Program-made: the position numbers and the translations under genes
Shown: positions 1,958 to 5,385 of the stretch, in pieces
How the letters are laid out: each line of letters starts with the position of its first letter
Position numbering within the stretch: position 1 is the first letter of the stretch
The notes under the pieces: generated by a model
What the model was told of the DNA's origin: nothing
Database searches by the model: none
The model's input: only the letters and a program-made list of their open reading frames with translations
Virus record (IMG/VR): IMGVR_UViG_3300034642_000119
Span: 1-20,531 of that record
From: a virus
Length of the DNA: 20,531 bases
Strand: one strand, 5' to 3'

Positions 1958-2983
1958 TTAGGGTTTAATTGCATCAATGCCAGGCAAGTATTCACTCATT
2001 CCTAATAACTCACCTGTGGTAAACTTCCCACCAAATGGGTCTAATTCACCATTAGTAATTTTAGCTTGTAGGTCTTCAGCAATGTTTGCTAAAACCTCTG
2101 GCATATTAGTGTACTCTGCCATTTTTACCATACCAGTATCCATACCACCCCATGTGTCTGAAGTTTTCCAAGTACCATCAATTACTGCTTGTACTCTTTT
2201 TACATAGTATGGCCCCCAATCATCAATGATTGCAGTTAACTGTGATTTTGGTGCAAATTTAATCATATCTGATGCTTGACCAAATCCAAGAATACCTTCC
2301 ATCTCTGCAATTTGTAATGCAGCTGGTGAATCTGTATGTTGAGTTATAATGTCTACTCCTTGAGAAATTAGTACTTTGGCTGCATCAGCTTCTTTTGCTG
2401 GGTCATACCAAGTGTTTACCCATACTACATCAACATCAAAATTTGGATTAACAGATGTAGCACCTAACCAAAATGCGTTAATACCACGAATAACTTCTGG
2501 AATTGGAAAGGATGCGATATAACCAGCCTTACCTTTTTTACTCATGTGTCCAGCGATAACACCTTGAATATATCTGCCTTGATAGAACTTTGAAGAATAG
2601 ACTGACATATTGGGCGCAGTCTTATATCCAGTTGCGTGTTCAAATTTTACGTCTGGAAATTCTTTTGCAACTTTTAACATGGACTCCATATAACCGAAAG
2701 AAGTTGCAAAAATAATATCAACTCCAGATTGAGCCATTTGTCTCATTACTCTTTCAGCATCAGGCCCATATTTAACATTTTCTACATATACCGTAGAAAC
2801 TTTATCACCTAATTCAGATTCTACTAACAATCTGCCTTGGTCATGCATATAAGTCCAGCCATGGTCACCGACTGGCCCCACATATACAAATCCAACTTTA
2901 AGTTTTTCATCAGCATACGCTAATGAAAAGGGTAGTGTCAGTAACATTACAAATGCTACTGATAAAATCTTGAATAGTCTCAT
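1958..2983 (-). CDS. BMP-family (PnrA/Med-like) periplasmic substrate-binding protein
   Basis: 341 residues with a clear Sec signal peptide: basic MRLFK, hydrophobic segment to about 21, and an AYA cleavage site after residue 24 (A22-Y-A24, then D25). There is no lipobox cysteine, so the mature protein should be soluble in the periplasm. The mature part is a type 1 periplasmic binding fold of the BMP family: KVGFVYVGPVGDHGW at 29-43, GVDIIFATSFGYME, YQGRYIQGVIAGHMSKKG, GQASDM and the C-terminal GGKFTTGE. Known members bind purine nucleosides or related ligands for ABC importers; the ligand here cannot be read. No permease or ATPase genes are nearby, so it would have to serve a host transporter. 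It has its own late promoter (3044-3051), the SD AAAGGAT, and a terminator after the stop. This looks like a host-derived auxiliary gene; PstS in cyanophages is the known precedent for a phage-borne periplasmic binding protein. Confidence 0.93.
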   Translation of the reverse strand: MRLFKILSVAFVMLLTLPFSLAYADEKLKVGFVYVGPVGDHGWTYMHDQGRLLVESELGDKVSTVYVENVKYGPDAERVMRQMAQSGVDIIFATSFGYMESMLKVAKEFPDVKFEHATGYKTAPNMSVYSSKFYQGRYIQGVIAGHMSKKGKAGYIASFPIPEVIRGINAFWLGATSVNPNFDVDVVWVNTWYDPAKEADAAKVLISQGVDIITQHTDSPAALQIAEMEGILGFGQASDMIKFAPKSQLTAIIDDWGPYYVKRVQAVIDGTWKTSDTWGGMDTGMVKMAEYTNMPEVLANIAEDLQAKITNGELDPFGGKFTTGELLGMSEYLPGIDAIKP

Positions 2984-3053: not shown

Positions 3054-3159
3054 TGGCTCTAGGGGAAGGACTCGAACCTTCACGATAAATATTTCTTTGC
3101 CAAGAACATCTATCACATGATTAACAGTCATGCGTGTCTACCAATTTCACCACCCTAGA
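3054..3159 (-). tRNA. tRNA-Asn(GTT) with class II body and giant variable arm
   Basis: 106 nt including encoded CCA. Acceptor stem TCTAGGG/CCCTAGA is a perfect 7 bp. The D stem is 3 bp (GTG/CAC) with loop AAATTGGTAGA, typical of tRNA-Leu. The anticodon stem is CATGA/TCATG with loop CTGTTAA, so the anticodon is GTT (3125-3123), Asn. The T arm is GAAGG-TTCGAGT-CCTTC. Discriminator G73, first pair U1-A72, and the anticodon loop CTGTTAA match E. coli tRNA-Asn. The variable region is 34 nt (3115-3082): G3114 to T3102 pairs with C3084 to A3097 as ten base pairs, a bulged A3094, three more pairs and a GGCA loop. Ordinary tRNA-Asn has a 5-nt variable loop, and bacterial Leu, Ser or Tyr arms are far shorter than this. 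It lies 5 bp after the stop of a synthetase-like gene and is probably co-transcribed with it. Confidence 0.9.
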
Positions 3160-3164
3160 ATTTA

Positions 3165-3965
3165 TTAATTTTTGTCTAGAGCTGCAATCATTCTAGTCAT
3201 ACCGATACCACCACCAACTCTTGGAAAGAAATCAAACTTGAGAAATGTCTCTAGTTCTGCTTCTACTCTATCTTTACCAAATAAATCAAATAACAATTTA
3301 GAATATTCACCGTTTGTGATTGTATGAAATGTATCTCTCATTTGTTCTACATCTGTACTACGTTCTGCACTACCTATTGTTTCCATACCACCTAATATAA
3401 CATCTATTTTTTTACTTGTAACACCATCATTATTTCTAGACATATTCCAAAAAGGTGAAGTAAATTCTGGAAAATGTGTTATCATCCCATTCCATATTTT
3501 TTCTTCATGTTCATTATCCAATTCTTCAACTTCAAATTCTGAAGCCCAATTATAATAAGTTTTATCTTCTAACTCTGGAAATCCTAGATATTCACAAAGT
3601 TCAATTTCCATCTTTTTTAAATCATTGATATCGCCTGGCATTTCAAATTCAAACATTGGAAATATAATATCATGTCGGCCAGGAATTGCATTTGGTTCTT
3701 GTCTATACGAAGTGGAGACACAAAAAAACCCCTTAGAATTAGGGGCTGATAATAGTTCGTGTTCTAACCACATTTGACCTGTCTGGGGAAGTGGCCAGAC
3801 TTGGCCTGCATAATTGTATGTTGCAACATTGAATGGGTCTTCACAAGCTGCAAGTATTGATAATCTATTTTGTGTGTGGACTTCTAAGAATCCTTTTCGC
3901 AAAAAAAAAGACCTCAAAAGGTCTACAGTTTTCGTAAATTTTTCTGGTGAAATTAGTTGTGTCAT
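3165..3965 (-). CDS. Stand-alone class II aaRS-like core (AsnRS / asparagine synthetase A-like)
   Basis: 266 residues comprising only the catalytic core of the Asp/Asn/Lys class II synthetases. Motif 1 region: LRSFFLRKGFLEVHTQ at 17-32; the usual motif 1 proline (EVxTP) is Q32 here. PLPQTGQMWLEHELL at 58-72 matches the AspRS/AsnRS segment (LPQSPQLFKQ). Motif 2: FCVSTSYRQEP at 81-91 (R88, E90), then GRHDIIFPMFEFEM at 96-109. METIGSAERSTDVEQM at 194-209 resembles AsnRS EIIGGSQRE. Motif 3: GGGIGMTRM at 251-259 (R258), which is closer to AsnA GGGIGQSRL than to the usual GLDRL/GFERL. There is no N-terminal OB anticodon-binding domain. I start at ATG 3965 because AGGAAAAG precedes it; in-frame sequence further upstream runs into gp23. 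Either an AsnRS-like enzyme for the adjacent tRNA-Asn or an asparagine synthetase (archaeal AsnRS paralogues of this kind exist). Confidence 0.85.
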   Translation of the reverse strand: MTQLISPEKFTKTVDLLRSFFLRKGFLEVHTQNRLSILAACEDPFNVATYNYAGQVWPLPQTGQMWLEHELLSAPNSKGFFCVSTSYRQEPNAIPGRHDIIFPMFEFEMPGDINDLKKMEIELCEYLGFPELEDKTYYNWASEFEVEELDNEHEEKIWNGMITHFPEFTSPFWNMSRNNDGVTSKKIDVILGGMETIGSAERSTDVEQMRDTFHTITNGEYSKLLFDLFGKDRVEAELETFLKFDFFPRVGGGIGMTRMIAALDKN

Positions 3966-3983: not shown

Positions 3984-4013
3984 AAAAAAAGGGGGATTAA
4001 AAAACCCCCCTTT
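3984..4013 (-). terminator. Intrinsic terminator after gp23
   Basis: Minus-strand AAAGGGGG stem, loop region GTTTTTTAAT, CCCCCTTT, ending in seven T. It lies 28 nt past the capsid stop and 18 nt before the synthetase-like ATG. It should close the highly expressed capsid transcript. Confidence 0.92.
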
Positions 4014-4041: not shown

Positions 4042-5385
4042 TTACATAAGATTGGTAACTTGTACTCTTCTGTAGTAGACGTTTTCATCTCCACCAAGAC
4101 CGATATCAATAGCTGCATTAGCACCTTTATGGAATGGGTTAGTTGCCATACCATATCTGGTTTTGAAACCGATTTTTGGTTGGAAAGAATTCTCACCAAC
4201 TGCACGAACCATCTGTAGTGGAACGTATGGGCAGTAGAAAAGACCAGCGTCATATGGTGAAGTACCCTTATAACCAACAACGTAGTACTGAGCAGCTGCG
4301 TTATTAGCTGCATATGGGTCAACATACACTTTATAACGACCATTCAGTGTACCAGCAAAAGTGTTACCAGTGTCATCTACCTGTAGGTTATTATTGAGAG
4401 CAGGAGTATAGTCAAGAATACCAGCCATCTGAAGTGCAGAAGCTACATCAGAAGAAGTGATAATCATGTTACCCTTACCTCTTCTAGTTTCTTGAGCAAT
4501 TACATTCGCATCTCTTTCGATTTGGAACATAAGTCCTTTGAACTTCTCAACTGACCATCTACCGTTTGAGTCTGTATCTAAGTCGAAGATACCAGCATTA
4601 GTCGTGTTGATTGAAGCACCTTTCTTTGCAGAGACATAGATTGTTCTAATTACTTCTCTGTTAATTTCAGCAAGGATTTCTGAAGACAGAATATTTGACA
4701 ATTCTGTTTCTGCGTCTAGACCATGAATTGCTTTAAGGTCTTGAGCAAGTTCCATAGTGTATTCTGCTTTAAGTGCTCTTGACTTTGCTTCAACACTGGC
4801 TTTTTCGATTGAGAACGCCATTTGAGCAAAACCGTTTCCAGATGTACCGTCACCTAATGCTTCAGCAGTTCCAGTAGTCATACCACCGTCAGCGGTATAA
4901 TCACCAGCAGAACCTGTATTGTTTAGTACAGCAGGGTTGGTTTCACCAGCAGATGAAGTACCAGCAGAGCCAGGAAGGTTAGCGTTTTCACTACCACCAG
5001 AGAAAGCTGATTCTGCTTCGTTGTAGAACGCTTCGTGACCAGCAGTAAAACCTGTATTTTGGTCATCGTAGTTTGACTTCATTGCAAAGATAAGACCAGT
5101 TGGGCCAGTCATTGGCTGAACTGCACATACGTCATATGCAATCAAGTTTGGCATGGAACGTCTTACGAGCGAAATTAAAATTGGGTCGTAATTATCAATA
5201 CCAGCACCAGTAGAGTTAACAGGTGCAGCTTCACGAAGGAAAGCAGCATCCTCTTTCATTGCTTTTTCTTGGTTTTCCAAGATGATTGAAGTAACGGCTT
5301 TTTTATAGTTATCCTTAATCTCCGGCAAATCTGGGTGTTTAAGGACTGGCTGCCACTTCTCTTGTAAGTTTTCTGAATTATACAT
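4042..5385 (-). CDS. gp23: Major capsid protein gp23
   Basis: 447 residues (T4 gp23: 521). It forms the hexamers of the head shell. Clear gp23 signature: DPILISLVRRSMPNLIAYD followed by VCAVQPMTGPTGLIFAM (T4 ALVRRAVPQLIAFDVCGVQPMSGPTGQIFA), and the C-terminal half with YKVYVDPYA, YYVVGYKG, FYCPYVPLQMVRAVGE and KIGFKTRYGMATNPF. The N-terminal 52 residues are a likely scaffold-interacting peptide removed by the gp21 protease: L50-R51-E52 then A53 fits the T4 consensus of hydrophobic-x-Glu. A late-promoter-like motif (GATAAATA) and a strong GGGAG SD precede it, and a strong terminator follows. No gp24 vertex paralogue is in the window. Confidence 0.97.
   Translation of the reverse strand: MYNSENLQEKWQPVLKHPDLPEIKDNYKKAVTSIILENQEKAMKEDAAFLREAAPVNSTGAGIDNYDPILISLVRRSMPNLIAYDVCAVQPMTGPTGLIFAMKSNYDDQNTGFTAGHEAFYNEAESAFSGGSENANLPGSAGTSSAGETNPAVLNNTGSAGDYTADGGMTTGTAEALGDGTSGNGFAQMAFSIEKASVEAKSRALKAEYTMELAQDLKAIHGLDAETELSNILSSEILAEINREVIRTIYVSAKKGASINTTNAGIFDLDTDSNGRWSVEKFKGLMFQIERDANVIAQETRRGKGNMIITSSDVASALQMAGILDYTPALNNNLQVDDTGNTFAGTLNGRYKVYVDPYAANNAAAQYYVVGYKGTSPYDAGLFYCPYVPLQMVRAVGENSFQPKIGFKTRYGMATNPFHKGANAAIDIGLGGDENVYYRRVQVTNLM

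Follow-up and report, generated by a model that had tools for sequence, protein, structure and literature searches.

A synthetase-like core and its adjacent tRNA in marine phages: a possible pyrimidine-synthesis enzyme with a dedicated tRNA

What use a phage might have for the catalytic core of a tRNA synthetase followed, on the same strand and 5 nt after its stop codon, by a tRNA of unusual build is the question raised by one locus in a 20,531-base virus record, the whole of which was analysed here and is termed the window. The window is a fragment of a T4-like marine phage, with gp23, the gp20 portal and the gp17 terminase present, and the original prediction regarded the two genes as an isolated unit forming a candidate orthogonal charging pair. 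Both genes and the gap between them are confirmed as predicted, and the protein encoded by the ORF at 3165-3965 on the minus strand is here termed AsnL. The features of the locus are as follows.

1958..2983, minus strand: gene for a BMP/PnrA-like substrate-binding protein (PF02608, 187.6 bits)
3054..3159, minus strand: tRNA with anticodon GUU, U1-A72, G73, encoded CCA, a Leu-like D arm and a long variable arm (Rfam, covariation)
3082..3115, minus strand: variable region of the tRNA, 34 nt, forming a hairpin (folding and covariation)
3123..3125, minus strand: anticodon GUU of the AsnL-linked tRNA, in the loop CUGUUAA, with A37 in the window copy (direct reading)
3165..3965, minus strand: AsnL, a standalone class II catalytic core of AsnRS/AspRS type, 266 aa (Pfam, PHROG, AlphaFold2, Foldseek)
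3720..3747, minus strand: H2, an intragenic terminator-like hairpin with a U run, AsnL codons 73-82 (promoter/terminator scan and conservation)
3901..3924, minus strand: H1, an intragenic terminator-like hairpin with a U run, AsnL codons 14-22 (promoter/terminator scan and conservation)
3984..4010, minus strand: terminator-like hairpin in the gap between gp23 and AsnL (GGGGGG..CCCCC, U7) (folding)
4042..5385, minus strand: gp23 major capsid protein, the upstream neighbour of AsnL (PF07068, 492.6 bits)

The isolation of the pair is less well borne out than its arrangement. A hairpin with a G6/C5 stem and a U7 tail is indeed present at 3984-4010, where a terminator had been proposed to separate the pair from gp23, but the stability of its fold is ordinary for a sequence of this composition (z -0.97). 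On the other side, nothing separates the tRNA from the BMP/PnrA-like gene, which starts 70 nt downstream on the same strand and is possibly co-transcribed with the pair, and two further terminator-like hairpins lie inside AsnL. Relatives of the BMP/PnrA-like gene are also seen near AsnL in about 26 loci.

The only Pfam match of AsnL is tRNA-synt_2 (PF00152, 57.9 bits against a cut-off of 25), and its PHROG match, phrog_29758 (474 bits), is a family annotated as of unknown function. An AlphaFold2 model built with 54 aligned homologues (pLDDT 92.2, pTM 0.90) assigns the entire chain of 266 residues to the catalytic core, in agreement with the predicted lack of an anticodon domain, and the N-terminal OB-fold domain that binds the anticodon is absent. 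Foldseek ranks AsnRS first (8tc9, 1x54), followed by AspRS and then by archaeal asparagine synthetase A (3rl6/3rex, TM 0.70-0.71), and the GUU anticodon of the tRNA does agree, as had been proposed, with the closest family of the enzyme. The residues of class II motifs 2 and 3 are invariant in the AsnL alignment. The lysine of the AspRS motif QSPQLYKQ binds the substrate, and the aligned pocket motif reads QTGQMWLE in AsnL and QSSQLYLE in AsnRS; leucine hence occupies the position of this lysine in AsnL, as it does in AsnRS, which hints at asparagine as the substrate. The ATP motifs of AsnL, a conserved synthetase core, are intact, and its pocket signature resembles that of AsnRS. AsnL shares with AsnRS the class II core, motifs 2 and 3, this pocket residue and the best fold match, but it lacks the N-terminal anticodon-binding domain, falls under the cut-off of the AsnRS equivalog TIGR00457 (22.9 versus 342.6 bits) and shows 15-19% identity. 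With archaeal asparagine synthetase A (AS-AR, 3p8t/3rl6) it shares an AsnRS/AspRS core devoid of the anticodon domain, and we also count as a likeness that the substrate of that enzyme is a free amino acid; however, identity is about 22%, the match to NF005055 reaches 24.8 bits against a cut-off of 389, the genomic context is different and AsnL bearers mostly have AsnB-like genes.

The tRNA is real, as predicted. Rfam matches it at 3054-3159 on the minus strand (54.6 bits, E 1e-10) with four arms and a paired variable arm, although ARAGORN, run on the window, misses it. It folds at -31.5 kcal/mol (z -2.6) with the variable arm paired, and in 34 homologous tRNAs 99.1% of cells are paired and all five helices are supported, two-sided changes being found in 18 of 24 pairs, variable arm included, and amounting to 153 in total versus 34 in shuffles. 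The variable arm (helix 4) is paired in 94.5% of cells and presents two-sided changes in all four of its pairs. This covariation rules out a chance origin of the tRNA.

The body of the tRNA is Leu-like: the closest cell-genome matches of the family model R1 that were checked are tRNA-Leu in 20 of 20 cases, and a phage tRNA-Leu(TAG) in L015 resembles it in the D arm and the long variable arm. The A73 and Leu anticodon of tRNA-Leu identity are nevertheless replaced by G73 and GUU, which are shared with phage tRNA-Asn genes, whereas the short class I variable loop of tRNA-Asn is absent (34 nt in the window). The AsnL-linked tRNA is a hybrid that departs from both groups in its obligate neighbour AsnL and, in most copies, in a pyrimidine at position 37. 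All 105 distinct GUU tRNAs of the AsnL-linked family carry U1-A72 and G73. The identity of tRNA-Asn has been ascribed to the anticodon and G73 (PMC9976931), and U1-A72 is required by GatCAB, tRNA-dependent Asn synthesis being an established process (PMC4206432). Position 37, on the other hand, is U in 79, C in 7 and A in 19 of the 105 tRNAs (a pyrimidine in 86, or 82%), and position 33 is not U in three; the 72 other tRNAs on the same contigs always have purine 37 (pyrimidine in 0/72) and always U33. The features that serve Asn identity and GatCAB recognition do not vary, while positions related to decoding are relaxed. The window tRNA does not itself show the relaxed loop, since it carries A37, and with its ordinary loop CUGUUAA it may decode normally.

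The giant variable arm had been proposed as the handle by which AsnL would read the tRNA. Its length, however, ranges over 12-39 nt in 104 of the 105 tRNAs and is 6 nt in one (L003, 3806-3883) that retains the same GUU, G73 and U1-A72, which makes an essential handle unlikely. Two further AsnL contigs present divergent tRNAs. In L297 the adjacent GUU tRNA (5077-5170) has apparently mismatched first and second acceptor pairs and discriminator A, and in L239 (4866-4885) the downstream tRNA apparently consists only of an acceptor stem and GCCA (TCCGGGGTCCCCCGGAGCCA), as if the body had been deleted.

Linkage was assessed from both sides. Among 80 viral contigs out of more than 590 AsnL relatives, a complete GUU tRNA lies shortly downstream of the gene on the same strand in 76, the contig ends inside the tRNA in one and the tRNA is absent in three (L012, L047 and L048). 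Conversely, a tRNA pattern blind to the gene identified 119 viral contigs, three of which end before the gene, and AsnL lies directly upstream on the same strand in 115 of the 116 testable ones (within 150 nt in 112 and at 230 nt in three). The sole apparent tRNA without AsnL (L192) was rejected as a family member, reaching at most 25 bits with model R1. The pair is also found in the cultured cyanophages P-SSM7, P-SSM2 and P-SSM5, and the gene is listed as 'tRNA ligase' in the table of a 2010 cyanophage survey (PMC3037559). In P-SSM2 (L082, NC_006883.2) the tRNA-Asn of the record (164094-164179) falls inside another gene, which is probably an annotation error; our location of it is 162083-162168, immediately behind the 'tRNA ligase' gene.

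The strict linkage that had been named as support for a charging pair holds closely in these phages, but in cells and huge phages AsnL stands alone. A scan of genome contigs returned 110 AsnL relatives, the best 80 of which were analysed, many of them with 50-67% identity, from Patescibacteria, DPANN archaea, Midichloriaceae, Pasteurella atlantica, Dependentiae and some Bacteroidota. No such tRNA lies near AsnL in these best 80, except in the phage-like L236, L237, L238, L243 and L297. Elsewhere in cell genomes, model R1 recovered only tRNA-Leu in the 20 best matches checked, and a U37 GUU tRNA pattern applied to 29 AsnL genomes returned only ordinary tRNAs or non-tRNA matches. The huge phages L084 and L085 (LR756501 and LR756508; 735 and 484 kb) also have AsnL without an adjacent tRNA; their homologues show 46-48% identity, and their genomes have about 70 and 36 tRNA matches. 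Independent occurrence of the two genes is hence found in one direction, AsnL being common in bacteria, archaea and huge phages that lack the tRNA. In a tree of 59 AsnL proteins the tRNA-bearing genes are clustered, requiring 4 changes, a value reached by none of 500 label shuffles. A Pithovirus LCPAC304 homologue (BFVD A0A481Z9R2; 44% identity, TM 0.93) extends the AsnL family to giant viruses.

Given that AsnL-bearing cells, and also three phage loci, lack the partner tRNA, the tRNA cannot be required for the core reaction of AsnL, and because the dependence is one-sided, the tRNA requiring AsnL but not the reverse, this reaction is probably not the charging of this particular tRNA. Nor does AsnL consistently replace a known enzyme of asparagine metabolism or charging, since full AsnRS over the cut-off is kept in 13 of 38 AsnL genomes and an Asn_synthase domain over the cut-off in 32 of 38, some of these matches being weak. 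The former count rules out AsnL as a simple replacement of AsnRS, and the latter disfavours it as a simple replacement of Asn synthetase.

In cells, genes for PyrF, PyrE, PyrD and Prs are among those neighbouring AsnL. In L258 (Candidatus Bandiella) the operon reads AsnL-pyrF-pyrE-pyrD-prs, and a PyrE/PyrF-like cluster is located within two genes of AsnL in 16 of 77 loci. Carbamoyl-phosphate synthase (CarB, PF02787) is found in 0 of 29 AsnL genomes, the ATCase/OTCase domain (PF02729) in three and dihydroorotase (PyrC) over the cut-off in one, whereas OMP decarboxylase (PyrF) exceeds the cut-off in 22; the absences are partly expected, since the set comprises mostly MAGs without completeness values and many of the genomes are incomplete or reduced. 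Each of these four families is present in 14 of 14 control genomes (PyrC over the cut-off in 11), and among 79 other genomes from the family to which one AsnL bearer (a Chitinophagaceae MAG) belongs, 77 have CarB. In L261 and L300, AsnL follows an ArgH-like lyase and an amidohydrolase, which may be additional members of the pathway or may simply serve arginine synthesis.

A similar association is seen in some viruses. A short PyrD-like protein (PF01180), with NCBIfam scores far below the cut-offs, occurs in at least 204 viral stretches, and AsnL is present in the stored DNA of 19 among the best 80 of these and in 14 of 40 longer viral contigs with the PyrD-like protein. Phage operons read AsnL-tRNA-PyrF-PyrD (L376, L394 and L413), PyrD-AsnL-tRNA-PyrE (L386 and L391, the phage PyrE being called by tblastn similarity and having no Pfam match) and, without the tRNA, AsnL-PyrD (L373/L374). 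Two observations count against a pyrimidine role: a same-strand pyr or prs gene within 1.5 kb is found in 16 of 94 distinct phage AsnL loci with flanks and in none of the remaining 78, and the window contains no pyr or prs gene.

Since bacterial AsnL is found among pyr genes in genomes without the normal first steps of the pathway, we tentatively favor, with a confidence a little short of even, the reading in which the phage carries its own version of an enzyme of pyrimidine synthesis along with a tRNA dedicated to it. In broader terms, the pair probably belongs to an undescribed pyrimidine-making route and serves more than protein synthesis only; a search of open-access papers found no description of AsnL, of the AsnL-tRNA pair or of such a pathway. 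Judging from the pyrimidine context and from the absence of carbamoyl-phosphate synthase, ATCase and dihydroorotase, the reaction that AsnL first performed seems to have been a metabolic one. AsnL would supply L-dihydroorotate to PyrD-PyrE-PyrF, bypassing CarAB-PyrB-PyrC, and would thereby yield the same product as these enzymes, but from an unrelated protein family and with one gene instead of several. Asparagine is the likely precursor because dihydroorotate equals Asn plus CO2 minus H2O, and the simplest chemistry would be L-asparagine + CO2 + ATP -> dihydroorotate + AMP + PPi, a conversion that an Asn-binding, adenylate-forming enzyme could plausibly carry out. A report on T. kodakarensis (PMC13260591) describes pyrimidine synthesis without carbamoyl-phosphate synthase, the carbamoyl phosphate coming from the arginine pathway; compared with what is described there, AsnL genomes mostly lack ATCase and DHOase as well.

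With less confidence, we see the main role of the phage tRNA in metabolism, as a partner of AsnL, and not in decoding. Because GUU, G73 and U1-A72 are all kept, and with them what AsnRS or a non-discriminating AspRS needs for charging and GatCAB for amidation, the tRNA may hand on or hold tRNA-made Asn, or signal the Asn supply to AsnL. The tRNA-dependent synthesis of Asn by ND-AspRS and GatCAB (PMC4206432) likewise uses a tRNA-Asn with U1-A72, but the AsnL-linked tRNA differs in being phage-borne, Leu-bodied, usually altered in the loop and linked to AsnL. It may supply Asn in hosts that make Asn only on tRNA, regulate AsnL, or still be charged and decode. The complete proposal, in which bacteria, archaea and phages share a one-enzyme entry to dihydroorotate from asparagine without carbamoyl phosphate and a dedicated marine-phage tRNA hands over tRNA-made or tRNA-stored Asn, we regard as rather unlikely in its entirety.

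A regulatory layer is suggested by the AsnL coding sequence itself, in which the promoter/terminator scan detected the two terminator-like hairpins, both conserved in phages. At codons 13-20, 115 of 124 phage AsnL genes fold better than 95% of their synonymous recodings (mean folding energy -6.4 versus -1.6 kcal/mol), and so do 43 of 50 distinct segments; at codons 72-81 the figure is 60 of 77 distinct segments, against 7-10% for control stretches in the same test. Identical codons are kept far above expectation at codons 15-19, and the stems change in compensating ways. The excess is weaker in cellular AsnL genes (20/72 and 25/75). H1 and H2 resemble intragenic attenuators and are candidates for a tandem pair, which may be coupled to translation; the UTP-sensed attenuation that controls pyrBI and pyrE in E. 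coli offers a precedent.

The alternative that survives best, although we consider it unlikely, is the one originally proposed, namely that AsnL charges the tRNA with Asn or a different amino acid, and that this tRNA would then decode AAY codons during infection. Asn identity features on a Leu-like body fit a dedicated charging pair, as do the near-strict linkage in phages, the invariance of GUU, G73 and U1-A72, the encoded CCA, the intact class II motifs and AsnRS fold of AsnL and, in the window, the canonical anticodon loop. This idea is nonetheless hard to reconcile with cellular AsnL genes that lack such a tRNA and lie in a pyrimidine context; moreover, pyrimidine 37 in 82% of the tRNAs and the missing U33 in 3/105 are unusual for a decoder, the variable arm is not conserved in length and, because AsnL has no anticodon domain, host enzymes or the ribosome account better for the invariant GUU. 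If it were true instead, the locus would supply a minimal Asn charging pair of natural origin with uses in engineering.

Less likely again is that AsnL is metabolic, in pyrimidine or asparagine synthesis, and the tRNA a regulatory RNA or cofactor, such that uncharged tRNA would bind and gate AsnL when Asn is low. This possibility is congruent with AsnL working without the tRNA in cells and the tRNA never being seen without AsnL, and the hairpins in the gene already suggest regulation. An archaeal-type asparagine synthetase A activity of AsnL (Asp + NH3 + ATP -> Asn), with the tRNA simply using the product, appears improbable: the core-only architecture, the fold match to 3rl6/3rex and the weak NF005055 match agree with it, but the latter is far under its cut-off, an Asn_synthase match, in some cases weak, is already present in 32 of 38 AsnL genomes, and the absence of CarB, PyrB and PyrC is left unexplained. 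Finally, a replacement tRNA whose altered loop resists a host anticodon nuclease, with AsnL keeping it charged, is the least probable reading, for even though most copies have an altered position 37, beside the anticodon at which nucleases of this kind act, and phage tRNAs that evade defence have been described (PMC11555353), GUU itself is unchanged, and neither the pyrimidine operons nor cellular AsnL would be accounted for.

Should AsnL indeed replace carbamoyl-phosphate synthase, ATCase and dihydroorotase as part of a pyrimidine-synthesis route, it would constitute an undescribed alternative to the textbook pathway and would help explain the supply of pyrimidines in many reduced bacteria and archaea. 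Participation of the tRNA as well would make it a rare case of a virus-borne tRNA that has evolved for metabolism, joining an RNA of translation to nucleotide metabolism.
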